DNA of 64,000 bases from Halomonas stenophila (GTDB taxonomy: Bacteria > Pseudomonadota > Gammaproteobacteria > Pseudomonadales > Halomonadaceae): the NCBI RefSeq assembly GCF_014192275.1, contig NZ_JACHXR010000009.1:1-64000 (forward strand). Direction: 5' to 3'. Position numbers and translations under genes: made by a program. Within the stretch, counting starts at the first letter, position 1; the number at the start of each line of letters is the position of its first letter. Under the pieces are notes generated by a model. That model was not told the origin of the DNA and did no database searches. It worked only from the letters and a program-made list of their open reading frames with translations. This document shows positions 47,175-62,929 of this stretch, piece after piece.

Positions 47175-48193
47175 TGGCCACTCTCTTGGCGGCTCTCCTG
47201 GTGGAACGCCTCCAGGATACGGGTGGCGCGCTCGCCGGTGCTCTCGACCCAGTCGTCGACCACGGGCTGGGCCGCCTGCTCGAGGCCGTCGTGGAACTCG
47301 GCCGGCACCGGATCGTGGATGCTGACGCCGTGTTCCTCGAGCTCGGTGTAGTTCTGCGCCACGCGTTCCTTCACGACCTCCCAGTTGTGGGCGTCCGTCT
47401 CCTCGGCGGCCTGGAGGATCGCCTGCTGGTTCTCCTCGCTCAGCTCGCGGAAGGCGTCGCGGTTCATGTGCACCATGTTGAGCGGCACGGCGTACTGGAT
47501 GGCGTTGAAGTCGCTCAGGTGTTCCCAGAAGCTGCCGTTGGCGCCGGCCTCGGCGGAGGTGAGCACCGCCTCGATGCCGCCGGTGGCGAGCTGGGGCACC
47601 ACATCGGCCCAGGAGAGCTTCACCGGGGAGGCGCCGGCGCTCACCAGGGTGGCGGTGCCGTTGCGGTCATAGCTGCGGATCTTGAGGTCCTCGAGCGCTG
47701 CCATGCTGGTGACGGGACCCTCGGACCAGATACCGCTGGCCGGCCAGGGCGAGGCGTAGAGCAGGATCTGGTCGTTGTCCTCGAAGACCTTTTCGTATTC
47801 CGGCCGGGCGATCTCGTAGAGGCGGCGGGCGGTTTCGACATCGTCCGCCACGAAGGGCAGCGACGACAGCAGGAAGATGGAGTCGATGCCGCCCAGGGTG
47901 CCGGAGAGGCTGTCGGCGATCTGCACGGCGTTGTCGGCCACGGCGTAGAAGTGATCCCCGGAGCGGAAGCCCAGCGCGCCGCCGGTGTGCAGGGTGATGT
48001 CGACGTCGCCGTCGGTCAGTTCGTCGACGCGCTCGATGAACCAGGCGTCGCCCTGGGCATGGATCGAGCCGGCGTTGTATTCGTTGGAGAAGTCCATGCT
48101 GGCCGAGTGGGCGGGCAGGGAGGCGGCGACCAGGCCAAGGGCCAACAGGGGAAACGCCGCAACGGCGAACGGTGGGCGAGAGGTGCCAGGCAT
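47171..48193 (-). CDS. TRAP transporter substrate-binding protein (DctP family)
   Basis: A 340-aa periplasmic protein with a signal peptide (PFAVAAFPLLALGLVAASLP, cleaved after AHSA). The DctP fold is seen in HFYAVADNAVQIADSLSG and LEDLKIRSYDRNGTATLVSA, where the conserved Arg (here in KIRSY) normally binds a carboxylate. WADVVPQLATGGIEAVLTSA is the third family block. It opens the operon and is divergent from the paralogue-2 regulator. Confidence 0.95.
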   Translation of the reverse strand: MPGTSRPPFAVAAFPLLALGLVAASLPAHSASMDFSNEYNAGSIHAQGDAWFIERVDELTDGDVDITLHTGGALGFRSGDHFYAVADNAVQIADSLSGTLGGIDSIFLLSSLPFVADDVETARRLYEIARPEYEKVFEDNDQILLYASPWPASGIWSEGPVTSMAALEDLKIRSYDRNGTATLVSAGASPVKLSWADVVPQLATGGIEAVLTSAEAGANGSFWEHLSDFNAIQYAVPLNMVHMNRDAFRELSEENQQAILQAAEETDAHNWEVVKERVAQNYTELEEHGVSIHDPVPAEFHDGLEQAAQPVVDDWVESTGERATRILEAFHQESRQESGQ

Positions 48194-48504: not shown

Positions 48505-49458
48505 ATGCGACTCCATCCCCCCGTCCCCGCGCCGGAACGGATCGGCTTCCTGCTCCTGCCCCGCTTCGCCATGGTGGCCTTCTTCTCGGCCATCGAGCCG
48601 CTGCGCATCGCCAACCGCATCAGTGGCCGGCCCCTCTTCCGGTGGGACGTGATCAGCCGCGACGGCGAGCCGGTGATGGCCTCCAACGGCATGACGCTGT
48701 CGGCGACCTGCGCCATGGCCGAGGCCCCGCCGTCCCCCAGCCTGGCGGTGTGCGCCAGCTTCGAGCCCGAGGCCGCTATCGATGACACCCTGCTCGACTG
48801 GCTGCGCGAGCGGGCCGCCGCGGGCTGCCTGCTCGGCGGCGTGGACACCGGCTGTTTCGTGCTCGCCGCCGCCGGGGTGCTCGAGGACCAGACGGTGACC
48901 CTGCACTGGGAGTCCCTGCCCGAGTTCCGCGCCCGCTTCCCGTGCATCGACGCCGTGGAATCGCTCTACGAGATCACCCCCGAGGGCTTCTCCTGCGCCG
49001 GCGGCAGTTCGGCCATCGACATGAGCCTCGACCTGATCCGCCGCCGTCACGGCGACGACCTGGCCGGCCAGGTCCGCGACCAGCTGCTCCACGACCAGGG
49101 ACGCCGGCCGGCCAGCCGCCAGCGCGACCCGGCCACCCCCGACGACCCGGTCCTGAATCGCGCCATCGCCCTGATGGAAGCCAACCTGGAGACGCCGCTG
49201 GGCATCCGCGAGCTGGCCGCCGAACTCGACCTCTCCTGGCGGCGACTCGACCGGCTCTTCGCCCGCCACCTGGGCACCTCGCCGCAGCATGCCTACCTGG
49301 CACGCCGCCTGGACCACGCCCATCGGCTGCTGCGCGAGACTCGCCACAGCGTCATGGACATCGCCCTGGCCTGCGGCTTCGCCTCCGCCTCGAGCTTCAC
49401 CCGCGCCTTCCGGCGCCGCCATGGCGTCACCCCGAGCGCGCTGCGACAGCGTCCCTGA
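48505..49458 (+). CDS. GATase1-like AraC family regulator (GlxA type), paralogue 2
   Basis: A 317-aa regulator built like paralogue 1. Shared blocks include EPLRIANRISGRPLF, the ASNGMTL segment, and TLHWESLP; the two N-terminal domains are nearly identical over long stretches. The AraC part ends VMDIALACGFASASSFTRAFRRRHG. It is divergent from the TRAP operon and upstream of the Rieske and butyrobetaine genes, so it could control either side. Confidence 0.93.
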   Translation: MRLHPPVPAPERIGFLLLPRFAMVAFFSAIEPLRIANRISGRPLFRWDVISRDGEPVMASNGMTLSATCAMAEAPPSPSLAVCASFEPEAAIDDTLLDWLRERAAAGCLLGGVDTGCFVLAAAGVLEDQTVTLHWESLPEFRARFPCIDAVESLYEITPEGFSCAGGSSAIDMSLDLIRRRHGDDLAGQVRDQLLHDQGRRPASRQRDPATPDDPVLNRAIALMEANLETPLGIRELAAELDLSWRRLDRLFARHLGTSPQHAYLARRLDHAHRLLRETRHSVMDIALACGFASASSFTRAFRRRHGVTPSALRQRP

Positions 49459-50044: not shown

Positions 50045-51271
50045 ATGACCGAGACCGCCCTGCCGTTGACGCCCGACTACGACGCCTGGCCGATCGACGC
50101 CGACCTCGACGCCGTCTCCTTCACGCCGCGCCTGGTGACGGTGCGCTGGAGCGACGGGCGCGTCAGCCGCTATCACGGCGTCTGGCTGCGCGAGAACGCC
50201 GCCGACGAGACCACCGTCAACTCGGCGACCCGGGAGCGGATCCTCGATCTCTCCACCCTGCCCGCCTGGCCGGCAATCGCCGGCGCCGAGATCGACGCCG
50301 CCGGCGCCCTGTGCGTGGCCTTCGCCCCCGAGGACCGGCGCCTGCGCTTCCACCCCGGCTGGCTGCGCGCCCACGACTACGACAATGCCGCCGATCCCGA
50401 GACGCCGCTGGTACCGGTGACGACCTGGCGGGGTGGGCCCGAGGAAGGCCCGGACACCCTCGATGCCACAGGCCTGCTCGATACCGCCCCCGACGGCGAG
50501 GTCGAGGAGGCGATCCTCGCCCCGGCGCTGGAGAGCGTGCTCGGCAAGGGCCTCGTGCGGCTGCGTGGCCTGCCCACCGAGCCCGGCTCGCTGGAGGCCA
50601 TCGCCCGGCGCATCGGCCCGGTGCGGCCCACCAACTTCGGCCAGCTGTTCGACGTCAAGGCCAAGCCGGATCCCGACTCCAATGCCTATACCGCCATCGC
50701 CCTGCCGCCCCACGTCGACCTGCCGACCCGGGAGTATCACCCGGGCCTGCAGATGCTGCACTGCCTGGAGAACGGCGTGGCGGGCGGCCAGGCGGTGATG
50801 CTCGACGGCTTCGCCGTGGCCGAGGCCTTGCGCGACCGCCACCCCGAGGCCTGGGCCACCCTGACCCGGGTGCGCTGGTGCTACGCCAACACCGCCAGGA
50901 CTACCGACTACGTGTGGCTCGCGCCGATGATCCGACTCGACGCCCGGGGCGAACTGCTCGAGGTGCGCATCGCCGACTTCCTGCGCGGCCCCCTGCAGAC
51001 CGCCTTCGAGGACGTCGAGCCGGCCTATGAGGCGCTGATGACCCTGCAGCGCCTGCTGCGCGACCCGGCCTTCGCCATCCGCTTCACCTACCGGCCCGGC
51101 GACCTGGTGATCTTCGACAACCGTCGCCTGCTGCATGCCCGGGACGCCTTCGAGGGCGCAAGCGGCCACCGCTGGCTGCAGGGCTGCTACATGGAGCGTG
51201 ACGAGATCCGCTCGCGCTACCGCATGATCCGGCGCGCCCGGCGTCGCCGGCGGCTGACCGCCGGGACCTGA
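50045..51271 (+). CDS. Gamma-butyrobetaine dioxygenase family protein
   Basis: A 408-aa Fe(II)/2-oxoglutarate oxygenase of the BBOX/TauD group. It has the N-terminal DUF971-like domain (VRWSDGRVSRYHGVWLRENA) and the catalytic domain with His223-x-Asp225 (PPHVDLPTRE) and His364 (LLHARDAF). Activity on gamma-butyrobetaine would give L-carnitine. The zinc cysteines of animal enzymes are absent (ENAADETTVN). A carnitine-degrading operon in the same window supports the assignment, but a related substrate is possible. Confidence 0.85.
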   Translation: MTETALPLTPDYDAWPIDADLDAVSFTPRLVTVRWSDGRVSRYHGVWLRENAADETTVNSATRERILDLSTLPAWPAIAGAEIDAAGALCVAFAPEDRRLRFHPGWLRAHDYDNAADPETPLVPVTTWRGGPEEGPDTLDATGLLDTAPDGEVEEAILAPALESVLGKGLVRLRGLPTEPGSLEAIARRIGPVRPTNFGQLFDVKAKPDPDSNAYTAIALPPHVDLPTREYHPGLQMLHCLENGVAGGQAVMLDGFAVAEALRDRHPEAWATLTRVRWCYANTARTTDYVWLAPMIRLDARGELLEVRIADFLRGPLQTAFEDVEPAYEALMTLQRLLRDPAFAIRFTYRPGDLVIFDNRRLLHARDAFEGASGHRWLQGCYMERDEIRSRYRMIRRARRRRRLTAGT

Positions 51272-51295: not shown

Positions 51296-52624
51296 ATGAC
51301 CGCTCCCGCCCAGACACCCGCCACCACCATCTCCGCGGCCTGGAGCCTCTGGGCACTGCTGCTGGGCGTCGGCCTGCTGATGCTGGGTAACGGCCTGCAG
51401 GGCAGCCTGCTCGGCGTGCGCGCCGCCGAGGAGGCCTTCGGCAACACCGTCACCGGCCTGGTCATGTCGGCCTACTTCGTCGGCTTCCTGGCCGGCTCGA
51501 CCCTGACGCCGCGCAAGCTGCGCCAGGTCGGCCATATCCGGGTGTTCGCGGCCCTGGCCTCGATCACCTCCGTGGCCATCCTGGTGCATGTGCTGTTCAT
51601 CGATCCCTGGGTCTGGGCGGCCATGCGCCTGGTCACCGGCTTCGCCTATGCCGGGCTCTACGTGGTCACCGAGAGCTGGCTCAACGGTCACGCCGGCAAC
51701 CACCTGCGCGGCCGGCTGCTGGCCTTCTACATGGTGATCAGCTACCTGGGGATGGGCGGCGGCCAGCTGCTGCTCAACGTCGCCGACCCGAGCGGTGTGG
51801 TGCTCTTCCTGATCGTCTCGATCCTGATGTCGTTGGCGCTGGTGCCGATCCTGCTCAGCTACACGCCTCAGCCGGACATCAGTCAGCCGGAGGCCATGAG
51901 CCTGCGGCGCCTGTACCGGTTGGCGCCACTGGGCACCCTGGGCTGCCTGCTGACCGGCATCGCCAACGGCAGCGTCTTCGGCATGGGGGCGGTATTCGCC
52001 ACCGGCAGCGGCCTGGCGGTGGATCAGGTCGCCGCCTTCATGGGCGCTTTCATCCTCGGCGGCGCCCTGCTGCAGTGGCCGCTGGGCAAGCTCTCGGACA
52101 AGACCGACCGCCGGGTGGTGATCGTGGCGGTGGCCGCGCTGGCGACGGTCCTGTCGCTGGTCGGCCTGCTGTTGGGCCGGGGCGACGCCCTGCCGCTGAC
52201 GCTGCTCGGCGTGCTGCTCGGCGGCACCACCCTGACCCTCTATTCGCTGCTGCTGGCCTGTGCCAACGATGCCCTCACGCCGTCGCAGACCCTGGCGGCG
52301 AGCAGCAGCCTGGTGCTGGCACTGGGGATCGGCGCCATCCTCGGCCCGCTGACCACCGGGCTGTTGATGGATGCCATCGGGCCCGACGGCTTCCTCTGGG
52401 ACCTGGCGCTGATCCATGCCGCCATCGTCGTCTTCGGTGGCTACTGCCTGGTGCGTCGCCCCGCGACCGACGTCGAGGAGCACGGGCACTACGTGGCGGT
52501 ACCCGCCGGCACCGCGCCGCTGGGTGCCACCTGGGTCGAGGAGGCCGCCAGCGAGCCCACCCAACTGGAATTCGAACTGAGCGAGCCACCTACCGAGGCG
52601 CCGCCGAACGGGTCGGCCGGCTGA
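51296..52624 (+). CDS. MFS transporter (YcaD-like)
   Basis: A 442-aa carrier with 12 membrane helices, with the MFS loop motif GKLSDKTDRRVVI between helices 8 and 9. LRQVGHIRVFAALASITSVA and NGHAGNHLRGRLLAFYMV resemble the YcaD/CynX-like subgroup. It starts 25 bases after the dioxygenase stop and is likely co-transcribed. The hydrophilic acidic tail (about 405-442) is unremarkable. The substrate is unknown. Confidence 0.9.
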   Translation: MTAPAQTPATTISAAWSLWALLLGVGLLMLGNGLQGSLLGVRAAEEAFGNTVTGLVMSAYFVGFLAGSTLTPRKLRQVGHIRVFAALASITSVAILVHVLFIDPWVWAAMRLVTGFAYAGLYVVTESWLNGHAGNHLRGRLLAFYMVISYLGMGGGQLLLNVADPSGVVLFLIVSILMSLALVPILLSYTPQPDISQPEAMSLRRLYRLAPLGTLGCLLTGIANGSVFGMGAVFATGSGLAVDQVAAFMGAFILGGALLQWPLGKLSDKTDRRVVIVAVAALATVLSLVGLLLGRGDALPLTLLGVLLGGTTLTLYSLLLACANDALTPSQTLAASSSLVLALGIGAILGPLTTGLLMDAIGPDGFLWDLALIHAAIVVFGGYCLVRRPATDVEEHGHYVAVPAGTAPLGATWVEEAASEPTQLEFELSEPPTEAPPNGSAG

Positions 52625-52628
52625 ACGC

Positions 52629-53648
52629 TCATCCCGGCCCCCGGGCCGCCGTCTCCCGCGGCGACTCCGCGAAGCGCGCCCGATAGGCCCGGGAGAAGTG
52701 CGCCGGGTGCTGGAAGCCGGTCGCCATCGCCGCCTCGGTCACCCGGCAGTGGCTGCCGGCCAGCAACCGCTGGGCCCGGTCGAGGCGCATGCCCAGATAG
52801 CATTGCTTGGGGGTCTCGCCGAAGTGTGCCAGGAACAGCCGCGTGAGCTGCCGCTGGGACTGGCCCGCCAGCCGGCAGATCTCGGGGATCGGCAACGCCT
52901 GGGCCAGGTTGGCCTCCATCGCCGCCAGGCTCTTGACCACGCTGCGCGGCAGGCCCGCGAGATGCGCCTGCCGGTCGTCCCCGGACGGCTCGTCGTGGCG
53001 ATGGTGCACCAGCTGACGGCCCACGGCGTTGGCCAGCGCCGGGCCATAGTCCCGCGCGATGCGATCCAGCATCATGTCGATCCCGGTGGTACCACCGGCG
53101 CCGGTCTGGCGGGTGGGATCGGCCTCGAACCGCTCGCGGCTGACCCGCAGCCGGGGAAACTCCCGGCGGAAGGCCGGCACGCTCTCCCAGTGCAGGGCCA
53201 CCCGATGCCCCTCCAGCACCCCGGCCCGCGCCAGGATGAAGGGCGCGGTATCCAGCCCCCCGAGCCAGCCGCCATGGGCCGCCACGCGGCGCAGCACCGC
53301 CCGGTCCTGGGCGGTGACCGCGGCCTCGGCCTCATAGGACGACACCACCATCAGGCTGGCGTCGTCGGGCACCGTGGCGAGCTGGCCATCCACCTCGATG
53401 CGCACGCCGTTGCTGGCGACCACCCCCTCGCCGTCCACCGAGCGGAGTCGCCAGGCGAAGAGGTCACGACCGAAGCGATTGGCCACCCGCAACGGCTCCA
53501 GCATGCAGAACAGGGTCAGCATCGAGAACTTGGGCACCAGCCACACATCCAGGGTGTGCTCCGCCTGTTCGGGAGACAGCAAAGGGGGGGAATCGGGACG
53601 GGGATAGGGCCAAGCCTCGGGATAGCCATCGCTCACGGCCAAATTCAT
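52629..53648 (-). CDS. GATase1-like AraC family regulator (third, divergent copy)
   Basis: A 339-aa regulator with a DJ-1/GATase1 domain (LDVWLVPKFSMLTLFCMLEP; LGGLDTAPFILARAGVLEGH) and a C-terminal AraC domain (PIPEICRLAGQSQRQLTRLF; VTEAAMATGFQHPAHFSRAY). It is more distant from the two paralogues. It is divergent from the tmpA-like gene and is the natural candidate to control that operon. ATG 53648 (MNLAVSDGYP) is preferred over the long N-terminal extension, which is Arg-rich and non-coding in appearance. Confidence 0.9.
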   Translation of the reverse strand: MNLAVSDGYPEAWPYPRPDSPPLLSPEQAEHTLDVWLVPKFSMLTLFCMLEPLRVANRFGRDLFAWRLRSVDGEGVVASNGVRIEVDGQLATVPDDASLMVVSSYEAEAAVTAQDRAVLRRVAAHGGWLGGLDTAPFILARAGVLEGHRVALHWESVPAFRREFPRLRVSRERFEADPTRQTGAGGTTGIDMMLDRIARDYGPALANAVGRQLVHHRHDEPSGDDRQAHLAGLPRSVVKSLAAMEANLAQALPIPEICRLAGQSQRQLTRLFLAHFGETPKQCYLGMRLDRAQRLLAGSHCRVTEAAMATGFQHPAHFSRAYRARFAESPRETAARGPG

Positions 53649-53773
53649 CAACTTTATGGCGAATTTACGCAAATCATAGCCCCGGGGTGACGTTAGGGTA
53701 AAGCCGGTCACGTCATCGGCGCCGCTGATCACGACCCCACAACGTCCCCTGCATGACTCGGAGATCCATCGCC

Positions 53774-54910
53774 ATGACCGCAAGCGGCAAGCCACGGCTG
53801 TCCCCCGACGGGCAGCGCCTGAGCCTCGACCTCGATGATCAGACCCGCGAGTTCGCGGCCCTGTGGCTGCGCGAGCGGACGCCCGACACCGAGACCCTGG
53901 ACCCGCGCACCGGTCAGCGCCTGATCGAGGCCGCCGACCTGCCCCTGAACCTCGCCCTGGAACATGCCGCACTCGATGGTGACGCCCTGGCGCTGCGCTT
54001 CAGCGACGGTCACGCCGCACACTTTCCGCTCGCCGAACTGCGCGCCGACACCGATGCCCGCGACACGATCGTCCCGGGCCGTACCCTGTGGGATTCCCGA
54101 CTGGCCGAGCCGCCCCGTACCGACTTCGCGGCCGCCCTGGACGACGACGCCGCCCTGCTCGAGATGCTCGAGGGCCTGCACCGCCACGGCTTCGTGCTGG
54201 TCTCCGGCGTGCCCAGCGACGAGGACGGCATGCAGGCGCTGATCGACCGCATCGGGCCGCTGCGGCGCACCAACTGGGGCGGCATCGCCGACGTCAAGTC
54301 GGTGGCCGACGCCTATGACCTGACCATGACCCAGCGCGGCCTGGAGCCGCATACCGACAACCCCTATCGCGACCCGATTCCCGGCTATATCTGGCTGCAT
54401 TGCCTGACCAACGCCGCCGCGGGCGGCGACAACACCCTGGTCGATGGCTATCGCGCGGCCCAGTTGCTTCGCGAGCGCGACCCGGCGGCCTTCGACTGCC
54501 TGACCCGGGTCTCGCCGGGGTTCCGCTACCGCGACGACACCACCTGGCTGGAGAGCGAGGGGCCGCTGATCGAGCTCGACGGCCGAGGCCAGGTAGTGCG
54601 GGTGCGCTACTCCAACCGCACCGAACGCGTCGACGCCCTGCCCGCCGAGGAGCTTGCCCGCTACTATGCCGCGCGACGCGCCTTCTATGCGCTGATCACC
54701 TCCGAGGAGCTCACCGTGCATCTCAAGCTCGACCCGGGCCAGATGCTGATCATGGACAACTATCGCCTGCTGCACGGCCGCCGCGCCTACGAGCTGGCCG
54801 GCGGCGTGCGCCACCTGCGCCAGGGCTACGTGGATCGCGACAGCACCGCCAGCCGCCGCCTGGTGCTGCGCCGGCAACTGGCCGAACCCCGCATGGAGGA
54901 GACGGCATGA
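53774..54910 (+). CDS. TmpA-like Fe(II)/2-oxoglutarate hydroxylase
   Basis: A 378-aa oxygenase of the butyrobetaine-hydroxylase family. His193-x-Asp195 (LEPHTDNPYRD) and His334 (YRLLHGRRAYE) are the iron ligands. As in the 50045 protein, the N-terminal zinc cysteines are missing (LRERTPDTETLDPRTGQRL). Paired with an HD-domain oxygenase, it matches TmpA of the 2-trimethylaminoethylphosphonate route, where TmpA hydroxylates the carbon next to phosphorus. ATG 53774 is chosen; 53753 is also possible. It overlaps the HD gene by 4 bases. Confidence 0.8.
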   Translation: MTASGKPRLSPDGQRLSLDLDDQTREFAALWLRERTPDTETLDPRTGQRLIEAADLPLNLALEHAALDGDALALRFSDGHAAHFPLAELRADTDARDTIVPGRTLWDSRLAEPPRTDFAAALDDDAALLEMLEGLHRHGFVLVSGVPSDEDGMQALIDRIGPLRRTNWGGIADVKSVADAYDLTMTQRGLEPHTDNPYRDPIPGYIWLHCLTNAAAGGDNTLVDGYRAAQLLRERDPAAFDCLTRVSPGFRYRDDTTWLESEGPLIELDGRGQVVRVRYSNRTERVDALPAEELARYYAARRAFYALITSEELTVHLKLDPGQMLIMDNYRLLHGRRAYELAGGVRHLRQGYVDRDSTASRRLVLRRQLAEPRMEETA

Positions 54911-55494
54911 ACCAGGCCCGCTTCCGCCACTTCGGCGAGGCACAGCGCGACGACTGGGCGCTGATCGACGATCGCTTCCGCGACTACATCGCCGACGCCC
55001 CGCGCCGCGTGCTCGCCCACCTCGACCGGCTGGCCGGCGACACCCACGGCTACCCGGTGGACCGCTACACGCACAGCCTGCAGACCGCCACCCGGGCGCT
55101 GCGCGACGGCGCCGACGAGGAGATGGTGGTCTGCGCCCTGCTCCACGACATCGGCGACGACCTGGCCCCGGCCAACCATGCCGAGATCGCCGCGGCCATC
55201 CTCGAGCCCTTCGTCGATCCGCTCAATGCCTGGATGATCCGCCATCACGAGCTCTTCCAGGGCTACCATTACCGCCACTATTTCGGCCTGGATCGCCACG
55301 CCCGGGCGCAGTTCCGCGACCATCCCGCCTATGCCCGCACGGTGCGCTTCTGCGACGCCTGGGACCAGGCCAGCTTCGACCCCGACTACGACACCCTGCC
55401 GCTCGACCACTTCGTGCCGATGGTCGAGCGCGTCCTGGGACGCACGCCCTTCGGCGGCCTGCCGGCGATCCTCGAGGAGACCGACACCCCATGA
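54907..55494 (+). CDS. TmpB/PhnZ-like HD-domain oxygenase
   Basis: A 195-aa HD-domain protein. The likely di-iron ligands are His56 (DRYTHSLQ), His80-Asp81 (ALLHDIGDD), a later His (RHHELFQGYHY, about 113-114) and an Asp near 150 (CDAWDQASFD). PhnZ and TmpB oxidatively cleave the C-P bond of 1-hydroxyphosphonates; homologues are often mis-annotated as phosphohydrolases. Here TmpB would act on the product of the preceding hydroxylase. The overlap with the downstream decarboxylase is 4 bases. Confidence 0.8.
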   Translation: MNQARFRHFGEAQRDDWALIDDRFRDYIADAPRRVLAHLDRLAGDTHGYPVDRYTHSLQTATRALRDGADEEMVVCALLHDIGDDLAPANHAEIAAAILEPFVDPLNAWMIRHHELFQGYHYRHYFGLDRHARAQFRDHPAYARTVRFCDAWDQASFDPDYDTLPLDHFVPMVERVLGRTPFGGLPAILEETDTP

Positions 55495-57089
55495 CCTGTG
55501 CCCAGCGACTGATCGAGCTGCTCGAGGCCCACGGCGTCGATACCGCCTTCGGCATCCCCGGCGTGCACACCATCGAGCTGTATCGCGCCCTGGGCGACAG
55601 CGGCCTGACCCACGTCACGCCACGCCACGAGCAGGGCGCCGGCTTCATGGCCGACGGCTACGCCCGGGCCAGCGGCAAGCCGGCGGCCTGCTTCATCATC
55701 TCCGGCCCCGGCATGACCAACATCGCCACCGCCATGGGCCAGGCACTGGCCGACTCGGTGCCGATGCTGGTGATCTCCAGCGTCAACCGGCGCGACACCC
55801 TGGGCCGCGGCCAGGGCCGGCTGCACGAGATGCCCCGCCAGGGCGAGACGCTCGCCGGGGTCAGCGTGTTCAGCCACACCCTGCACGACCCGGCGGCACT
55901 GCCCGAGGTGCTGGCCCGCGCCTTCGCGGTGTTCGCCTCCGCCCGCCCGGGACCCGTGCACATCGAGATCCCGCTCGAGGTGATGGCCGCGCCAGCGCCC
56001 GAGTCGCCGACCGCCGCCTCGGCGCGGGTCTTCCCGCCGGCCCCGGCTCCCGAGGCCCTGGCCCTGGCCGGCGACTGGCTGGCCGCGGCCGAGCGCCCGC
56101 TGGTGCTGCTCGGCGGCGGCACCGCCGCCGCCCCGGCGTCGGCCCGGGCGCTGGTCGAGCGCCTCGACGCCCCGGCCTTCACCACCATCAACGCCAAGGG
56201 CGTGCTGGGCCTCGACCACCCGCTCGATCTGGGCGCCACCATGAGCCTGCCCGCGGCGCGGCGCCTGGCCGCCGAGGCCGACGTGGTCCTGGCGCTGGGC
56301 ACCGAGCTCGGCGAGACCGACTACGACCTGGTCTTCGACGAGGGCTTCCGTCTCGACGGCCGGCTGATCCGTGTCGACATCGACCCCCAGCAGCTGGGTC
56401 GCAACCAGGCCGCCGACCTGGCGCTGCTCGCCGAGGCCGGCCAGGCGATGCGCGGCCTGCTCGAGCGCCTGCCTGGCGAAAGCGACCGCGATGGTGCCGG
56501 CCGTGCCGCCGCCGTGCGCGGCGACCTCGTGCTCGCCGAGGATCCGGAGCTCGCCCCCTATGTACCGCTCTACGCCACCCTGCGCGAGGCGCTGCCCGAG
56601 GCGATCGTGGTCGGCGACTCCACCGGCCCGGTCTATGCCGGCAACTTCCTGGCCTCAATGCCGGCCCCGCGGCGCTGGTTCAACGCCGCCACCGGCTTCG
56701 GCACCCTCGGCTATGGCCTGCCCGCCGCGCTGGGCGCCGCGTTGGCTCGGCCGGAGCAGCCGGTGGTCGCCCTGGTCGGCGACGGCGGGCTGCAGTTCGT
56801 GCTCGGCGAGCTCGGCACCGCCCGCGACCTGGGCCGGCCGGTGGCGCTGGTGATCTGGAACAACGATGGCTACGACGAGATCCGCCGCTACATGTCGCTG
56901 AGCGAGGTACCGCACCTGGGCGTCGACCTGGCCGCCCCGGACTTCCGCGCCCTGGCCGAGGCCTACGCCTGCCGCCACCAGGGCGTGACCGACCCGGCGA
57001 GCCTGCACGACGCCCTGACCCGCCTCGACGAGGCCCAGAGCCCGTTGATCATCGAGGTCGATGCCGCCGCCTGGGCCCAGGCGCTTTGA
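55491..57089 (+). CDS. Thiamine diphosphate ketoacid decarboxylase (AruI-like)
   Basis: A 532-aa ThDP enzyme with the three expected domains. The N-terminal Glu is in TPRHEQGAGFMADGYARASG. The ThDP-binding motif runs from GDGGLQF to WNNDGYDEI. Best known relatives are 2-ketoarginine decarboxylase (AruI) and acetolactate synthase-like enzymes. The neighbouring AruH-like transaminase favours AruI, which gives 4-guanidinobutyraldehyde. The link to the oxygenases suggests the real substrate may be an analogue. Confidence 0.85.
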   Translation: MTCAQRLIELLEAHGVDTAFGIPGVHTIELYRALGDSGLTHVTPRHEQGAGFMADGYARASGKPAACFIISGPGMTNIATAMGQALADSVPMLVISSVNRRDTLGRGQGRLHEMPRQGETLAGVSVFSHTLHDPAALPEVLARAFAVFASARPGPVHIEIPLEVMAAPAPESPTAASARVFPPAPAPEALALAGDWLAAAERPLVLLGGGTAAAPASARALVERLDAPAFTTINAKGVLGLDHPLDLGATMSLPAARRLAAEADVVLALGTELGETDYDLVFDEGFRLDGRLIRVDIDPQQLGRNQAADLALLAEAGQAMRGLLERLPGESDRDGAGRAAAVRGDLVLAEDPELAPYVPLYATLREALPEAIVVGDSTGPVYAGNFLASMPAPRRWFNAATGFGTLGYGLPAALGAALARPEQPVVALVGDGGLQFVLGELGTARDLGRPVALVIWNNDGYDEIRRYMSLSEVPHLGVDLAAPDFRALAEAYACRHQGVTDPASLHDALTRLDEAQSPLIIEVDAAAWAQAL

Positions 57090-57125
57090 GCGCAACGGAC
57101 GAGACGACGACTGAGGACCCCTGAT

Positions 57126-58319
57126 ATGCGATTTTCCCGACTGACCGACCGTATCGCCGGCGAGGGCGCCGCGGCCTGGGACATCCACAACCGGGCCCTG
57201 GCGCGCCAGGCCGCCGGCGAGGACATCACCGTGCTCTCGGTAGGTGACCCGGACTTCGACACCCCGGCGGCGATCGTCGAGGGCGCGGTAGCCAGCCTGC
57301 GCGCCGGCGCCACCCACTACCCCGACGTCCAGGGCAAGCGGGCCCTGCGTGAGGCCATCGCCGAGCGCTACCGGGCCCGCGGCGTGGACGTCACCCCGGA
57401 CAACCTGATCGTCATGGCCGGCGCCCAGTGCGGTCTGTATGCCGCCGCCCAGTGCCTGCTCGACCCCGGCGACGAGGTGATCGTCCCCGAGCCGAGCTAT
57501 GTCACCTACGAGGCGGTGCTGCAATCGACCGGCGCGAGCATGGTGCGCATCCCCCTGCGCGGCGACGCCGGCTTTCGCCTGGATCCGGCCGACCTCGAGG
57601 CGGCGATCACCCCGCGCACCCGGGCGATCCTGCTCAACAGCCCCCACAACCCCACCGGCCAGTTGATCGACGCCGAGGCCTGGGCCGCCATCGCCGCCCT
57701 GTGCCGGCGCCACGACCTGTGGCTGATCTCCGACGAGGTCTACGCCGAGCTGATCTTCGAGGGCGAGCATGTCTGCGCCGCGAGCCTGCCCGACATGGCC
57801 AGCCGCAGCGTGGTGGTCGACAGCCTCTCCAAGTCCCACGCCATGACCGGCTGGCGGCTGGGCTGGGTACTGGGCCCCGAGGCCCTGATCGACCACCTGG
57901 GTAACCTGGCGCTGTGCATGCTCTACGGCTGCCCGGACTTCATCCAGGACGCTGCCCGCGACGCCCTGCGTCAGCCCCTGCCCGAGCTCGACGCCATGCG
58001 CGAGAGCTACCGGGGCCGCCGCGACGCCGTGGTCGCCGCGCTCGCCGACTGCCCGGCGGTGGAGGTCGTCACGTCGGCGGCCGGCATGTTCCTGATGGTC
58101 GACGTGCGCGCCACCGGGCTGTCCTCCCAGGCCTTCGCCGACCGCCTGCTCGACGAGCAGGGCGTCTCGGTGCTCTCCGGCGAGGCCTTCGGCCCCTCCG
58201 CCGCCGGCTTCGTGCGCTTGAGCCTCACCGTCGAGGAGGCACGCCTCGCCGCGGCCTGCCGACGGCTGGCCCGCGTCGCCGAGGACGCCCGCGCCGATTC
58301 CCTTTCCACCATCGCATGA
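57126..58319 (+). CDS. aruH: Arginine:pyruvate transaminase-like (AruH)
   Basis: A 397-aa fold-type I aminotransferase. The N-terminus RFSRLTDRIAGEGAAAWDIH and GDPDFDTPA match Pseudomonas AruH. SLSKSHAMTGWRLGW carries PLP lysine Lys236, and CMLYGCPDFIQDAA is also shared. AruH moves the amino group of arginine to pyruvate, starting the transaminase route. Similarity is strong by eye, but other basic amino acids are possible. It lies 36 bases after the decarboxylase. Confidence 0.85.
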   Translation: MRFSRLTDRIAGEGAAAWDIHNRALARQAAGEDITVLSVGDPDFDTPAAIVEGAVASLRAGATHYPDVQGKRALREAIAERYRARGVDVTPDNLIVMAGAQCGLYAAAQCLLDPGDEVIVPEPSYVTYEAVLQSTGASMVRIPLRGDAGFRLDPADLEAAITPRTRAILLNSPHNPTGQLIDAEAWAAIAALCRRHDLWLISDEVYAELIFEGEHVCAASLPDMASRSVVVDSLSKSHAMTGWRLGWVLGPEALIDHLGNLALCMLYGCPDFIQDAARDALRQPLPELDAMRESYRGRRDAVVAALADCPAVEVVTSAAGMFLMVDVRATGLSSQAFADRLLDEQGVSVLSGEAFGPSAAGFVRLSLTVEEARLAAACRRLARVAEDARADSLSTIA

Positions 58320-58326
58320 GTCGCCT

Positions 58327-59130
58327 ATGACATCATCGAACCAAGCCCCCTCCCCCGACGCCTCCCACCGCCTGGCGGTGGAGGTCCAGCACCTCGTCAA
58401 GCGCTACGGCGACCTCGAGGTGCTGCGCGACGTCTCCCTCGAGGTGCCCGAGGGCAGCGTCACCTCGATCATCGGCGCCAGCGGCTCCGGCAAGAGCACC
58501 CTGCTGCGCTGTCTCAACCTGCTGGAACGCCCCGACCAGGGCGACCTGGCGATTGCGGATGAGGCGATCCGTTTCGACCGCAATCCCCAGGGCGACATCG
58601 TCGGCCTCGACCGGCGCCAGCTGCAGCGGCTGCGCGCCAAGGTCAGCATGGTCTTCCAGCAGTTCAACCTCTGGCCCCACTTCACGGTGCTGGGCAACGT
58701 CAGCGAGGCGCCGATGCGCGTCCAGGGGCTGTCGAAGCGACGCGCCATCGAGCACGCCGACTACTACCTGGAGCGGGTCGGCATGGCCGACAAGCGCGAC
58801 GGCTACCCGGCCTACCTGTCCGGCGGGCAGCAGCAGCGGGTGGCCATCGCCCGGGCACTGGCCATGGAGCCGCGCCTGCTGCTCTTCGACGAGCCCACCT
58901 CGGCGCTCGACCCGGAGCGGGTCAGCGAGGTGCTCGGCGTGATCCGCAACCTGGCCGCCGAGGGCCGCACCATGGTGCTGGTCACCCACGAGATGGCCTT
59001 CGCCCGCGAGGTCTCCGACCAGGTGGTGTTCCTCGACCGCGGCTTCGTCGGCGAGGCCGGCTCGCCAGGAGAAGTGTTCGAAGAGAGCCGGGACCCGCGC
59101 TGCCGGCGCTTCGTGGCCCCGGCGGCCTGA
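58327..59130 (+). CDS. Polar amino acid ABC transporter, ATP-binding protein
   Basis: A 267-aa ATPase with Walker A GASGSGKST, signature LSGGQQQRVAIARAL, and Walker B LLLFDEPTSALD. It is of the HisP/GlnQ/AotP group. The first ~20 residues are an added hydrophilic tail. It starts 7 bases after aruH, tying uptake to the catabolic genes. Confidence 0.96.
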   Translation: MTSSNQAPSPDASHRLAVEVQHLVKRYGDLEVLRDVSLEVPEGSVTSIIGASGSGKSTLLRCLNLLERPDQGDLAIADEAIRFDRNPQGDIVGLDRRQLQRLRAKVSMVFQQFNLWPHFTVLGNVSEAPMRVQGLSKRRAIEHADYYLERVGMADKRDGYPAYLSGGQQQRVAIARALAMEPRLLLFDEPTSALDPERVSEVLGVIRNLAAEGRTMVLVTHEMAFAREVSDQVVFLDRGFVGEAGSPGEVFEESRDPRCRRFVAPAA

Positions 59131-59179
59131 TCCGCCGCTTCCTTTCCCGGCACGACACGACAATAGCAAGGAGAACTGC

Positions 59180-59947
59180 ATGAACCGTCCCCTGATCACC
59201 CTCGTCGGCGCGGCCGTCCCGGGCCTGTCCGCCACCGCCCAGGCCGCCGAGCCCCTGAAGATCGGCATCTCCGCCGAGCCCTACCCACCCTTCACCTACA
59301 CGTCCTCCGCGGGCGAGTGGACCGGCTTCGAGGTCGAGCTGGGCATGGCCATCTGCGAGGCCATGGGGCGTGCCTGCGAGATCACCCCCACCGGCTGGAG
59401 CGGCATCATCCCCTCGCTCAAGGCCGGGCGCATCGACATGATCATGAACTCCATGTCGATCACCGAGGCGCGCCAGCGGGTCATCGACTTCAGCGAGCCC
59501 TACTACTTCACCCCGGGGGCGTTCGTGGCCGCCGACGATCTCGAGCTGGGCGGCCCCGACGACCTCGGCGGCCAGGTGCTCGGCGTGCAGGCCGCCACCA
59601 CCAACGCCACCTACGCGCGCCGCGCCCTGCGCGACAGCGTCGACGACATCCGGCTCTACGACCAGGCCGAGCAGGTCAACCGCGACCTGCTGTCCGGCCG
59701 CCTGGACGTGATCCTCGCCGACGAGATCGCCATGACCGAATTCCTCGAGCGCGACGAGGCCGAGGGCTTCGAGATCAAGGCCACCGCGCCGCGACACGCC
59801 GCCTACGGCGAGGGCGTGGGCATCGGCATCCGCCAGGACGACGACGCCCTCGAGGCCGATCTCAACGCGGCCATCGCCAAGGTCCGCGAGGACGGCACCT
59901 GCGGCGCGCTGTCGGAGGACTACTTCGGCACCGACATCTGCACCTGA
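59180..59947 (+). CDS. Polar amino acid ABC transporter, substrate-binding protein
   Basis: A 255-aa periplasmic binding protein (SBP_bac_3). A short signal peptide (cleaved after AQA) precedes EPLKIGISAEPYPPFTYTSS. Ligand-site blocks are GFEVELGMAICEAMG and GWSGIIPSLKAGRIDMIMNS, followed by FSEPYYFTPGAFV. It resembles ArtJ/HisJ/AotJ, which bind arginine, ornithine or histidine. The conserved Asp for a basic side chain cannot be confirmed by eye. Confidence 0.93.
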   Translation: MNRPLITLVGAAVPGLSATAQAAEPLKIGISAEPYPPFTYTSSAGEWTGFEVELGMAICEAMGRACEITPTGWSGIIPSLKAGRIDMIMNSMSITEARQRVIDFSEPYYFTPGAFVAADDLELGGPDDLGGQVLGVQAATTNATYARRALRDSVDDIRLYDQAEQVNRDLLSGRLDVILADEIAMTEFLERDEAEGFEIKATAPRHAAYGEGVGIGIRQDDDALEADLNAAIAKVREDGTCGALSEDYFGTDICT

Positions 59948-60031
59948 TCCCGGTCCTCGACGACGCTCGTCCGGCAGGCGGTCCCGACCGCCTGCCGGCC
60001 TCGCCCTGTCTCATCAAGGACACGACTGCCC

Positions 60032-60745
60032 ATGAACAAGGTTTCCCAAGAGGGACTGCTCGACTGGGCCGGCCCCATCCTCCAGGGCGCCCTCACGACC
60101 CTCGAGATCGCCGTGCTGGCCTATGCCATCGGCCTGCTGCTGGGGCTGCTCGGCGCCAGCGCCCGGCTCAGCCCCTGGGCCCCGCTGCGCGGCCTGGCCA
60201 CCGCCTACTCCACCGCGGTACGGGCGGTCCCCGAGCTGCTGCTGATCATCCTGCTCTACTACGCCGGCTCCCAGGCACTCACCGCCCTGACCAACGCCCT
60301 GGGGCTGCCCGGCCAGGTCGCCATCAACGGCTTCGTCACCGCCGTGGGCGTGCTGGCCTTCGTCCAGGGCGCCTACATGACCGAGGTGCTGCGCGGCGCC
60401 ATCCTGGCCATCCCCCGGGGTCAACTCGAGGCCGCCGACGCCTTCGGCTTCTCGGCCTGGACCCGTTTCCATCGCATCGTCGTCCCCGCCATGCTGCCCA
60501 ACGCCCTGCCCGGGATGTCCAACCTGTGGCTGATCCTGATCAAGGACACCGCCCTGATCAGCGTGATCGGCTTCAGCGAGCTGTTCTTCACCATCCAGCA
60601 GGCCGCCGCCAGCACCCGCGCCCACTTCCTGTTCTACGCCGCCGCCGGCGTCATCTACCTGGCGATGACGCTGTCGTCCACGGCGCTGTTCACGCGCCTG
60701 GAACGCCGCGTGCGGCGCGGCCAACCGCTGCGCGAGGAGGCCTGA
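60032..60745 (+). CDS. Polar amino acid ABC transporter permease 1
   Basis: A 237-aa permease of the HisQ type with five membrane helices. The cytoplasmic coupling loop is GAILAIPRGQLEAADAFGFS, with the EAA motif. The N-terminal scaffold motif AVRAVPELLLIILLYY is typical. It ends one base before permease 2. Confidence 0.95.
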   Translation: MNKVSQEGLLDWAGPILQGALTTLEIAVLAYAIGLLLGLLGASARLSPWAPLRGLATAYSTAVRAVPELLLIILLYYAGSQALTALTNALGLPGQVAINGFVTAVGVLAFVQGAYMTEVLRGAILAIPRGQLEAADAFGFSAWTRFHRIVVPAMLPNALPGMSNLWLILIKDTALISVIGFSELFFTIQQAAASTRAHFLFYAAAGVIYLAMTLSSTALFTRLERRVRRGQPLREEA

Positions 60746-60746
60746 C

Positions 60747-61499
60747 ATGGATTTTTCCTGGCTCCGGGACTCCTTCTATCAGGAGTACCTGATCGAAGGC
60801 TTCGTCAACACCCTCTGGCTGCTCGCCGTCTCCGCCGTCGGCGGCCTTCTGCTGGCCGTGGCGGTGGCCATGGCACGCATCAAGGGCCCGCGCCCGCTGG
60901 CCTGGGTCGCCCAGGGCTTCACCACGGTGATGCGCGGCACCCCGCTGCTGGTGCAGCTGTTCTTCTTCTACTACGGGGTCGGCCGGCTGCTGGAGGGCAT
61001 CCCCGGCGTGCAGGACAGCGTGATCTGGCCGCTGCTGCGCGACCCGTTCTTCTACGGCGCCCTGACCTTCATCCTCAGCGTCGGCGCCTACTCCGGCGAG
61101 GTGCTGCGCGGGGCCCTGATAAGCGTGCCCCCGGGCGAGCGCGAGGCGGGCCGCGCCTTCGGCATGAGCCCCTTCCAGGTCTTCGCCCGGCTGTGGCTGC
61201 CGCGGGCCGTCCAGCTGTGCCTGCCGACCCTGACCGGCGAGATGATCCTGCTGCTCAAGTCGGTGCCGCTGGTCTCCACCATCGCCCTGATGGACCTGCT
61301 GCAGGCCGCCAACATCATTCGCGACGAGACCTTTCTGGTCTACGAGCCGCTGATGCTGATCGCCGGCATCTACCTGGCCATGACGGTGGTGCTGACCCTG
61401 GTGCTGCGCCAGGTGGAGCGCCACTTCCCCGGCATGCAGCCGACGCGCCGCCGCTGGCGGCCCCTTCGTCGAGTCGAGACCGCCACATGCAAGCATTGA
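60747..61499 (+). CDS. Polar amino acid ABC transporter permease 2
   Basis: A 250-aa permease of the HisM type. VMRGTPLLVQLFFFYYGVG is the family segment, and GALISVPPGEREAGRAFGMS is the EAA loop. It overlaps the aldehyde dehydrogenase start by 13 bases. It completes a four-component importer. Confidence 0.95.
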   Translation: MDFSWLRDSFYQEYLIEGFVNTLWLLAVSAVGGLLLAVAVAMARIKGPRPLAWVAQGFTTVMRGTPLLVQLFFFYYGVGRLLEGIPGVQDSVIWPLLRDPFFYGALTFILSVGAYSGEVLRGALISVPPGEREAGRAFGMSPFQVFARLWLPRAVQLCLPTLTGEMILLLKSVPLVSTIALMDLLQAANIIRDETFLVYEPLMLIAGIYLAMTVVLTLVLRQVERHFPGMQPTRRRWRPLRRVETATCKH

Positions 61500-62929
61500 C
61501 CCATCATTTCATCGACAACCGCTGGGTGGCGAGCCGCGGCGAGCGCCGCCTGCCGGTCACCGATCCCTACCGCGAGAGCGTCATCGCCGAGGTCTCAGCC
61601 GGCTCGCCCGCGGACGTCGATGCCGCCGTGACCGCCGCCCGGCGTGCCCTGCCCGGCTGGCGTTCGCTCGGTGGCGCGGCGCGCGGCGCCTATCTGGACG
61701 CCCTGGCCGATGCCCTGGAAGCGCGCCGCGGGGAGCTCGAGGCGCTGTCCAGCCGCAACAACGGCAAGCCGCGGGCCGAGGCCGAGCAGGACCTCAGCGA
61801 TGCCATCGCCTGCTACCGCCACTATGCCGGCGAGGCCCGGGCCCTGGACGCCCGCCAGGGCGAGGCCGTGGCCACCGGCGAGGCGGGCCTGGTGTCGCGC
61901 CGCTACCGGGACCCGGCCGGCGTGGCCGGGCTGATCACGCCCTGGAACTTCCCGCTGGTCAGCAGTGCCTGGAAGCTGGCCCCGGCGCTGGCCGCCGGCT
62001 GCACGGTGGTGTTCAAGCCCTCCGAGGTCACGCCGCTGCCCGAGCAGGCGCTGGCCGAGATCGCCCTGGCGATCGACCTGCCGGCCGGCGTGTTCAACCT
62101 GGTCCACGGCGACGGCGAGGGCGTCGGCGCGCCGCTGACCGCCCATCGCGGCGTCGACAAGCTCTCCTTCACCGGCAGCAACCCGGTGGGCGAGGCGGTG
62201 ATGGCCGCCGCCGCCCGGGGCATCCGCAACGTCTCCCTGGAGCTCGGCGGCAAGTCACCGATACTCGTCACCGAGGACGCCGACCTCGACCTGGCGGCGG
62301 AGCTGGTGCTGGCCGGCTTCTGCTACAACACCGGCCAGATGTGCTCGGCCACCTCGCGACTGCTGGTCCACGCGGCCGTCGCCGAGGCCCTGCATGCCCG
62401 GCTGGACGCGGCCATCGCCGCGCTGGTGGCCGGCGATCCGCGGGACGCGACTACCACCCTGGGCCCGCTGGTCAACGCCGCCCAGCGCGACCGGGTGGCC
62501 GGCTACCTGGCGGCGGCCGAGGCCGAGGGGCTCGTGCCCACCACGGCGGAGGCGATCGCCCTGCCCGACCACGGCCACTTCGTCACCCCGCGGGTGTTCC
62601 GCGACGTGCCGACCGACAGCCGTTTGTGGCGCGAGGAGATCTTCGGCCCGGTGCTCTGCTCGCGGACCGTCCGCGACGACGACGAGGCGGTGGCGCTGGC
62701 CAACGACAGCGACTTCGGCCTGGCCGCCAGCGTGGTCGCCGGCGACCCGGCGCGGGCCGAGGCCCTGGCGGCCCGGCTCACCGCCGGCAACGTCTGGTGC
62801 AACACCCACCAGGTGGCCCCGCCGGGACTCGGCTGGGGCGGCATGAGGGGCAGCGGCATCGGCCGCGAGCTCGGCCGCGCCGGCCTCGCGGCCTATCTCG
62901 AGACCCGCTACGTCACCCGGCCGGCCTGA
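61487..62929 (+). CDS. Aldehyde dehydrogenase (aminoaldehyde/betaine-aldehyde type)
   Basis: A 480-aa NAD-dependent dehydrogenase. Catalytic Cys286 is in TGQMCSATSR and Glu252 in LELGGKSP; FTGSNPVGEAVM and PWNFPLVSSAWKLAPALAAG bind NAD. It resembles BetB, KauB and gamma-trimethylaminobutyraldehyde dehydrogenases, which share aromatic pockets. In an AruH-AruI pathway it would turn the decarboxylation product into an acid (4-guanidinobutyrate, or a betaine if the substrate is trimethylated). ATG 61487 (MQALTHHFIDNRW) overlaps the permease end. Confidence 0.92.
   Translation: MQALTHHFIDNRWVASRGERRLPVTDPYRESVIAEVSAGSPADVDAAVTAARRALPGWRSLGGAARGAYLDALADALEARRGELEALSSRNNGKPRAEAEQDLSDAIACYRHYAGEARALDARQGEAVATGEAGLVSRRYRDPAGVAGLITPWNFPLVSSAWKLAPALAAGCTVVFKPSEVTPLPEQALAEIALAIDLPAGVFNLVHGDGEGVGAPLTAHRGVDKLSFTGSNPVGEAVMAAAARGIRNVSLELGGKSPILVTEDADLDLAAELVLAGFCYNTGQMCSATSRLLVHAAVAEALHARLDAAIAALVAGDPRDATTTLGPLVNAAQRDRVAGYLAAAEAEGLVPTTAEAIALPDHGHFVTPRVFRDVPTDSRLWREEIFGPVLCSRTVRDDDEAVALANDSDFGLAASVVAGDPARAEALAARLTAGNVWCNTHQVAPPGLGWGGMRGSGIGRELGRAGLAAYLETRYVTRPA

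Follow-up and report, generated by a model that had tools for sequence, protein, structure and literature searches.

Which pathway could join a TmpA-like oxygenase pair to genes of the AruI and AruH families is the question raised by a 64,000-nucleotide stretch of Halomonas stenophila DNA (hereafter, the window). On its plus strand, an operon at 53753-62929 encodes a BBOX-family hydroxylase (TmpA1), an HD-domain protein, a thiamine diphosphate (ThDP)-dependent decarboxylase, an aminotransferase, ATP-binding cassette (ABC) transporter proteins and an aldehyde dehydrogenase (ALDH), as read from the list of open reading frames (ORFs) with families assigned by Pfam and NCBIfam. An earlier note on this DNA had taken the first two products for a TmpAB-like pair that cleaves a head group and had suggested that they share a pathway with the AruI and AruH products. 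The shared pathway is plausible and the gene set proved to be conserved, while the TmpAB assignment had to be given up on the evidence presented below. We consider it probable that the operon is instead a quaternary-ammonium module that feeds carnitine metabolism.

The three leading genes are tightly packed. TmpA1, an Fe(II)/2-oxoglutarate (2OG) hydroxylase of the BBOX/TmpA family (PF02668 and PF06155), is encoded at 53774-54910, the HD protein at 54907-55494 and the decarboxylase at 55491-57089, and the 4-base overlaps that the earlier note had described at both junctions are borne out by the ORF coordinates. The TmpA1 ORF opens at 53753, from which residue numbers are counted here; its eighth codon, at 53774, is an ATG that forms an invariant column in an alignment of nine sequences and is thus probably the true start. 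No phosphonate gene was recognized in the operon, and the ORF list with its family assignments contained no ureohydrolase gene there.

The HD protein reaches only 45.4 bits on the TmpB model NF049941, where the cut-off is 300. In PMC8177086, PhnZ and TmpB are described as carrying a YxxE substrate loop before the first metal-binding His. An alignment of 95 relatives of the HD protein (collected from 96 loci, with L105 dropped) shows Tyr or Phe in place of the Glu of this motif in every row, and the window protein reads T46-H-G-Y49. All 95 relatives keep the metal ligands H56, H80, D81, H91, H114 and D153, in the order H...HD...H...H...D, and 94 of them keep Arg53. When an AlphaFold2 model of the protein (predicted local distance difference test score 93.2, predicted template modelling score 0.87) was used for a fold search, all ten matches at E<=0.001 were PhnZ or TmpB chains, with 4n71 as the best match in the Protein Data Bank (PDB), followed more weakly by the tRNA enzyme 3wfr_E (E 0.014) and by myo-inositol oxygenase (MIOX; E 0.2). 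Since the fold matches PhnZ and TmpB, the metal ligands are kept and YxxE is lost, the HD protein is best read as a predicted mixed-valent diiron oxygenase whose subfamily lacks the substrate loop of PhnZ and TmpB. An HD hydrolase was rejected, as the fold matches PhnZ and TmpB and not HD hydrolases.

For the hydroxylase, the name assigned by the TmpA model NF049936 should be considered with care. TmpA1 scores 447.9 bits on this model, over the cut-off of 400, and its ortholog in locus L052 scores 422.5 bits. The control pair in L129, from the sole genome over the TmpB cut-off among 145 genomes of the order, passes both models, with 561.4 bits on NF049936 and 300.7 bits on NF049941. The Fe ligands H200, D202 and H341 and the 2OG arginine R353 are kept in all 83 rows of the TmpA1 alignment, as is the cation cage W175/A179/M192/Y359, which is likewise found in 21 of 21 orthologs. 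These rows comprise 80 loci and L229-L231, the latter taken without sequence patterns and probably adding only two new members, as L229 is probably the same as L211. It should be noted that W175 was partly selected for, since MLIMDNY and R[RQ]TNWGGI served as the patterns by which the 80 loci were picked, while A179, M192 and Y359 lie outside both. When the cages are placed at what we take to be the BBOX cage positions (Y177/W181/Y194/Y366), the alignment gives Y/F/Y/Y for TmpA, F/F/Y/Y for both BBOX1, a second BBOX-family hydroxylase of the window, and TmpA2, and W/A/M/Y for TmpA1, which thus does not match the aromatic cage of TmpA. In a 23-row tree, TmpA1 and TmpA2 are grouped and split off at 100/98 from the TmpA rows (6npb and L129) and from the BBOX rows, of which hBBOX forms a long branch; the two TmpA rows form a clade of their own (100/100), with TmpA1 outside it. 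Because the HD partner and the cage both differ from those of TmpA/TmpB, the automatic TmpA name is likely wrong for the hydroxylases of the window and of L052, and the NF049936 label is unsafe wherever the HD partner goes unchecked. TmpA2 belongs to a further pair in the same genome (L002:266-2088, contig G000:C1), in which TmpA2 is 35% identical to TmpA1 and the HD protein 47% identical to that of the operon, with a LysR-like gene (by eye) adjoining; the substrate of this pair may be a true trimethylammonium acid.

The linkage of the oxygenase pair with AruI and AruH was tested against the possibility, raised in the earlier note, that it occurs only in this strain. Each of the 20 loci from other genomes of the genus with an operon-type HD gene (L014-L033) has TmpA1, HD, AruI and AruH grouped in this order. 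Among 369 genomes of the class, TmpA1 was found at E<=1e-75 in four; apart from the genome of the window, these are three members of a single genus in family f267. One of the latter (G739) holds TmpA1 and the complete set of four ABC genes in a span of 10 kb, where HD (46%), AruI (52%) and AruH (57%) lie on the opposite strand; a second (G842) carries the same set up to the ATPase gene, where the contig ends; and the third is probably the same record as L211. The linkage therefore exceeds one strain and, as the sets in G739 and G842 are arranged differently, survives rearrangement.

A broader view of the locus is provided by the 80 TmpA1 loci, taken from 85 relatives. Over the whole stretches, GbdR-like regulators are found in 79 loci and BBOX1 in 54, while 35-36 loci have carnitine genes and 3 a major facilitator superfamily (MFS) transporter gene. 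Downstream of TmpA1 and on the same strand, where the counts are lower bounds because the flanks span at most 10 kb, the HD gene is present in 77 loci, AruH in 69, a ChoX-type gene in 68, the ABC ATPase and the ABC binding protein in 61 each, AruI in 57, ALDH in 34 and a class II aldolase (PRK07044) in 24. In the three loci that lack a full HD gene after TmpA1, the contig ends (L177), only an N-terminal fragment is present (L210), or none was found (L211). The ChoX-type protein is of the OpuAC/ChoX family (PF04069; 236 bits on TIGR03414, below the cut-off of 379), and three of its Trp residues presumably match those of the choline-binding chain 2reg; in nine loci that we read, its gene lies between AruI and AruH in all nine, accompanied there by the aldolase gene in four. 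A minimal locus in Kushneria (L203) consists of BBOX1, a regulator, TmpA1, HD, ChoX and carnitine genes, with no AruI, AruH or ABC genes in the stretch, and ABC genes without AruI or AruH were seen in the stretches from Cobetia (L187) and Vreelandella (L158). From these minimal and partial loci, together with AruI-free genomes described below, we conclude that the core in Halomonadaceae is TmpA1-HD, usually with ChoX, and that AruI, AruH, the ABC genes and ALDH are a frequent extension. AruI and AruH were also considered as the core, an option weakened by three TmpA1-HD genomes without AruI at E<=1e-100. Two further arrangements were seen among these loci: in two strains of Onishia taeanensis, two TmpA1 loci lie on one contig (L140/L160 and L142/L177), about 24 and 30 kb apart, and in a member of the Rhodospirillaceae, BBOX-like and TmpA1 genes precede an HD gene of which just the N-terminal part is present (L210:11089-11196).

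The connection to carnitine comes from genes that lie outside the coordinates covered by the earlier note, which did not connect either the carnitine cluster (37.9-42.2 kb) or BBOX1 (50.0 kb) to the operon. The cluster, at 37913-42169 on the plus strand, starts with a beta-keto acid cleavage enzyme of BKACE type that probably acts on dehydrocarnitine (37913-38845; 259 bits on NF052387, below the cut-off of 382), whose gene overlaps that of an L-carnitine dehydrogenase (LcdH; 38842-39798; 428.3 bits on PRK07066, over the cut-off of 414). These are followed by a thioesterase resembling the C-terminal part of carnitine 3-dehydrogenase (39798-40259; 125 bits over positions 346-492 of PRK07531, below its full-length cut-off) and by a BCCT family transporter (40328-42169; 446.7 bits on TIGR00842, over the cut-off of 407.55). 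BBOX1 itself (50045-51271, plus strand) is possibly a gamma-butyrobetaine hydroxylase, and since its 315.9 bits on TIGR02409 miss the cut-off of 414.75, we name it BBOX-like only. Regulators resembling GbdR, all below the cut-off of 480 on NF052371, are encoded at 44199-45161 (minus strand, 325 bits), at 48505-49458 upstream of BBOX1 (plus strand, 271 bits, GbdR/CdhR-like) and at 52629-53711, divergent from the operon (minus strand, 213 bits, start uncertain). With the carnitine cluster and the regulators at 44.2 and 48.5 kb, the region of about 37.9-62.9 kb looks like an island for carnitine-like compounds. Other genes in this region are an MFS transporter gene at 51296-52624 (plus strand, PF07690), a tripartite ATP-independent periplasmic (TRAP) transporter at 45309-48193 on the minus strand, with DctM- and DctP-type subunits and a small subunit assigned by position, and an ORF at 43495-44202 on the plus strand that resembles, by eye, a PKHD-type 2OG hydroxylase.

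Co-occurrence was analyzed in a sample of 61 genomes of the genus, with identity thresholds of at least 70% for BBOX1 and at least 80% for carnitine dehydrogenase. An HD relative is present in 25 of these genomes and is of operon type (at least 78% identity) in 21. BBOX1 was found in 26 genomes, comprising all 21 that carry an operon-type HD gene and 5 of the 40 others (in fragments in G047 and with an in-frame stop in G039), and carnitine dehydrogenase in 34, comprising 21 of 21 and 13 of 40 (in two pieces in G035); 6 of the 40 genomes without operon-type HD are less than 90% complete. Fisher tests, which ignore kinship, give 5e-12 for BBOX1 and 8e-8 for carnitine dehydrogenase. Among 24 genomes that lack BBOX1 within 10 kb of TmpA1, a search that overlaps the genus sample in at least five genomes (G018, G020, G047, G048 and G056), 23 have a BBOX1 match elsewhere at E<=1e-60; 21 of these matches show 67-88% identity over nearly the full length, one is in fragments (G587) and one is at 42% (G603). 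The second HD gene is not tied to carnitine in this way, as G016 and G034 carry it without BBOX1 or carnitine dehydrogenase at the identities used for the sample.

The names AruI and AruH, proposed in the earlier note, stand at the level of the family, and for the decarboxylase not beyond it. The decarboxylase scores 765.7 bits on PRK07524 (cut-off 500), an assignment at subfamily level that carries little information on the substrate. Its operon sequences form a clade of their own (100/99), sister to AruI proteins from loci with a YjiH-type transporter, several of which also hold agmatinase-like or ALDH genes, and which include L041 and L049, two loci with a third type of HD gene. A second AruI copy in the same genome (L128), 67% identical, lies in a locus of agmatinase-like, YjiH, AruI and ALDH genes and belongs to this sister group. 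Three f3 genomes, from the same order, encode AruI-family proteins beside an AruH-like gene, a pair that we take to be the true aruHI; these AruI-family proteins split off at 100/100, far from the operon AruI, and are 44-47% identical to it. The operon AruI is thus a paralog that could accommodate another, new substrate. The AruH-like class I/II aminotransferase (57126-58319, PF00155) reached the cut-off of none of its 25 best NCBIfam models and is 62% identical to the aminotransferase encoded beside AruI in the same three f3 genomes. The four transporter genes encode an ATPase of polar amino acid type (58327-59130; PF00005; 315 bits on HisP, below the cut-off of 466), a periplasmic binding protein of lysine/arginine/ornithine (LAO)/octopine type (59180-59947; PF00497; 203.5 bits on TIGR01096, below 256.35), a HisQ-type permease (60032-60745; PF00528; 183.9 bits on PRK15135, below 319) and a HisM/ArtM-type permease (60747-61499; under the cut-offs of full-length models). 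The solved chains closest to the binding protein are octopine-, arginine- and LAO-binding; at what we take to be the equivalent positions of the LAO protein, the alpha-amino and carboxylate contacts look kept and Asp11 looks lost. The operon ends with the ALDH, of betaine/aminobutyraldehyde type (61487-62929; 439 bits on TIGR01804 and 438 bits on PRK13473, both below cut-off).

On these grounds we favor a catabolic module that would take a trimethylammonium amino acid into the carnitine pathway, although for the full path as written here our confidence falls somewhat short of even. The ABC transporter would import the amino acid, most likely N6-trimethyllysine, which the aminotransferase would convert to the 2-oxo acid, the AruI-family decarboxylase to the aldehyde and the ALDH to 5-trimethylaminovalerate (delta-valerobetaine). 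TmpA1 would then hydroxylate this acid beside the carboxylate, and the HD enzyme, with O2, would turn the alpha-hydroxy acid into gamma-butyrobetaine with CO2 leaving, by the logic of PhnZ on an alpha-hydroxyphosphonate, from which phosphate leaves. BBOX1 could convert gamma-butyrobetaine to carnitine, and L-carnitine dehydrogenase, BKACE and the thioesterase could convert carnitine to glycine betaine. We infer which substrate is used, in what order the steps follow and what reaction the HD enzyme carries out; the gene content, overlaps, conserved linkage, loop loss and carnitine co-occurrence are observed, as are the oxygenase-type fold of the model and the metal ligands. Trimethyllysine and delta-valerobetaine fit because the latter is one carbon longer than the BBOX substrate, and because an ABC binding protein of the amino acid type is matched to the former and a ChoX-type protein to a betaine. 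We further count in favor of this path the carnitine cluster in the window with its dehydrogenase over cut-off, the co-occurrence data, the ChoX-type gene in 68 of 80 loci, the minimal Kushneria locus, the gene sets of G739 and G842, the HD fold matches, and three genomes of a further family in which an HD relative is flanked by BKACE and a carnitine 3-dehydrogenase-like gene. The suggestion of the earlier note that a trimethylammonium amino acid feeds gamma-butyrobetaine fits the neighboring carnitine genes.

Several observations weigh against the trimethyllysine path and need to be considered when using it. TmpA1 lacks two of the four cage aromatics of BBOX and TmpA, and its pocket may therefore bind something other than plain trimethylammonium; the altered cage could suit a longer chain and counts equally against a plain trimethylammonium substrate. 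BBOX1 keeps the F/F/Y/Y cage yet stays under the curated cut-off. The related genomes in the co-occurrence analysis are not independent, and G601, which carries TmpA1-HD, gave no BBOX1 match in the genome-wide search at E<=1e-60. The path gives no role to the class II aldolase of 24 loci, and neither this gene nor a ChoX-type gene was found in the window, be it in the operon or elsewhere. A Salinicola locus (L191) resembles the minimal one with AruH added and lacks AruI, and AruI is absent genome-wide at E<=1e-100 in one Kushneria (G580) and two Salinicola (G581 and G313) genomes, all carriers of TmpA1-HD, from which it follows that the trimethyllysine branch is not universal. In L211, TmpA1 has an in-frame TGA and stands with AruI, AruH, BKACE and LcdH, with no HD gene found. 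Finally, no ChoX, BBOX1 or carnitine genes are present in the stretches read from G739 and G842 (19.9 and 11.7 kb, the rest of these genomes not having been searched), which slightly weakens both the carnitine-feeding module in general and the full path, and speaks for a guanidino route.

In that route, arginine or a relative would be converted by AruH, AruI and ALDH to 4-guanidinobutyrate, a cationic acid that TmpA1-HD would oxidize. Besides the two f267 stretches, the AruI family name over cut-off, the arginine/octopine-type binding protein and the remodelled cation cage speak for it, as does a locus in G033 and G038 that has an agmatinase-like gene and in which another HD relative immediately precedes an AruI-family gene. 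We nonetheless consider it unlikely, as the ChoX-type gene and the co-occurrence with BBOX1 and carnitine dehydrogenase point elsewhere, the operon has no ureohydrolase and its AruI is of a different clade, and the genome has a separate agmatinase-like/YjiH/AruI/ALDH locus. About as unlikely, ranking just behind, is that TmpA1 is a trimethyllysine hydroxylase, in which case the HD enzyme would cleave C2-C3 of 3-hydroxy-trimethyllysine, a vicinal amino alcohol (as MIOX does with a diol), to gamma-butyrobetaine, glyoxylate and ammonia, with AruH, AruI and ALDH as a parallel branch. Two BBOX-family enzymes would then stand side by side as in eukaryotic carnitine synthesis, in line with BBOX1 co-occurrence and with the Kushneria locus without AruI and AruH; but on the model for trimethyllysine dioxygenase TmpA1 reaches only 160.7 bits, below the cut-off of 268.3, a ChoX gene of betaine type points to a substrate that has no alpha-amino group, and AruH-AruI-ALDH would be left without a role.

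That the operon holds two independent neighbors with no common intermediates, an oxygenase pair for a betaine and a transaminase pathway for an amino acid, would explain why AruI and AruH are each absent downstream of TmpA1 in some loci (present in 57 and 69 of 80), but it is improbable in view of the overlap of the HD and AruI genes and of the differently arranged set in f267. Still less probable is the version in the earlier note, by which AruH, AruI and ALDH convert trimethylornithine to gamma-butyrobetaine and the oxygenase pair separately cleaves a related head group: no chain shortening would be needed and BBOX1 is nearby, but the tightest pair, TmpA1-HD (77 of 80 loci), would have no place in the path, and in the Kushneria locus it occurs with BBOX1 and carnitine genes without AruI or AruH, in a genome without AruI. 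A true TmpAB pair converting 2-trimethylammonioethylphosphonate to glycine betaine and phosphate was rejected as very improbable: although the hydroxylase passes the TmpA model and the context is of betaine type, the HD protein misses the TmpB cut-off, YxxE is absent from all 95 relatives, the clade is separate and the cage changed. A reaction of the dimethylsulfoniopropionate type, decarboxylation of a hydroxy acid by DsyD, was also considered; as DsyD is described in PMC11306096 as similar to a ureidoglycolate lyase domain, no homology is expected.

The HD subfamily extends well beyond the operon, with at least 7807 matches at E<=1e-5 among 8000 scored candidates; names, where given among 120 listed entries, are only of HD-domain or phosphohydrolase type. 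In a sample of the phylum, matches at E<=0.001, including weak ones, were found in 82 of 397 genomes. Of 58 HD loci from other families, six (L090, L097, L098, L101, L102 and L108) have a gene for a PhyH-type 2OG oxygenase directly before the HD gene, at a distance of no more than 100 bases, as another hydroxylase-HD tandem; a PRK07044-type class II aldolase lies within 110 bases in five (L058, L061, L067, L088 and L091), a type that also fits the aldolase of a Halomonas operon (L017:13219-13950). BKACE and LcdH flank the HD gene in three, TmpA2-type genes are found in two, agmatinase-like genes in two and a DUF962-like small gene (by eye) in four, while in most of the other 36 loci none of the queried families adjoins, and families that were not queried could be there. 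In the three loci in which the HD gene stands between BKACE and a carnitine 3-dehydrogenase-like gene (L103:4715-11531, L106 and L100), the dehydrogenase of L103, the only one tested, scores 595.9 bits (cut-off 592), and the next genes encode an acyl-CoA dehydrogenase-like protein (by eye), an NDP-forming CoA ligase and an enoyl-CoA hydratase-like protein (by eye). The third HD type stands directly upstream of an AruI-family gene (L041:3928-13233 and L049:3772-13120), with genes for agmatinase-like, YjiH-type, NCS1-type transporter and ALDH proteins and, in L041, for a carbon-nitrogen hydrolase and a metallo-beta-lactamase (MBL)-fold protein; no TmpA-like gene was found in these stretches. It is possible, though we lean clearly against it, that bacteria convert trimethyllysine to carnitine with the help of a 2OG hydroxylase and an HD diiron oxygenase of a new subfamily, which together remove one betaine carbon by oxidative decarboxylation of an alpha-hydroxy acid, and that this subfamily, which elsewhere stands with PhyH, TmpA2, class II aldolase or carnitine dehydrogenase, is a broad C-C cleaving family. 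If true, C-C cleavage beside a carboxylate would be a new reaction for HD oxygenases and would widen mixed-valent diiron chemistry, and bacteria would have a sink for delta-valerobetaine.

When compared with known systems, the tandem of a 2OG enzyme and an HD enzyme is of a known kind, while the HD subfamily, the linkage with AruI/AruH and carnitine genes, and the proposed reaction did not turn up in our literature searches, which left out most subscription papers and showed nothing on this operon. The TmpA/TmpB pair of Leisingera caerulea has the same adjacent genes for a BBOX-family 2OG hydroxylase and an HD oxygenase, the same folds and the same kept metal ligands; it differs in that the window HD subfamily lacks YxxE and falls far under the TmpB cut-off, and in that the window hydroxylase is of another clade, with W/A/M/Y rather than Y/F/Y/Y, with no phosphonate gene recognized nearby. 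PhnY/PhnZ shares the division of labor and the HD fold (4n71 being the best PDB match), whereas the YxxE loop is missing from the window HD protein, the gene context is another, and PhnY belongs to another 2OG family. Eukaryotic carnitine synthesis proceeds by trimethyllysine hydroxylase (TMLH), an aldolase, 4-trimethylaminobutyraldehyde (TMABA) dehydrogenase and BBOX; two BBOX-family enzymes, an aldehyde dehydrogenase and, as proposed here, gamma-butyrobetaine would be common to both, while the window has a decarboxylase and an HD oxygenase in place of the pyridoxal phosphate (PLP)-dependent aldolase, in a catabolic setting. The aruHI genes of Pseudomonas belong to the arginine transaminase pathway and share with the operon the families of the aminotransferase, ThDP decarboxylase and aldehyde dehydrogenase; unlike them, the window has an AruI of another clade and no ureohydrolase. 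MIOX, according to PMC8177086, is an HD diiron oxygenase that cleaves a C-C bond and acts without a 2OG partner, and its fold match to the window HD protein is weak. The gut enzymes DavB and DavA, a monooxygenase and an amidase, convert trimethyllysine to delta-valerobetaine according to PMC11773067, and arrive at the same product that is proposed here to be made by a transaminase, a decarboxylase and a dehydrogenase.

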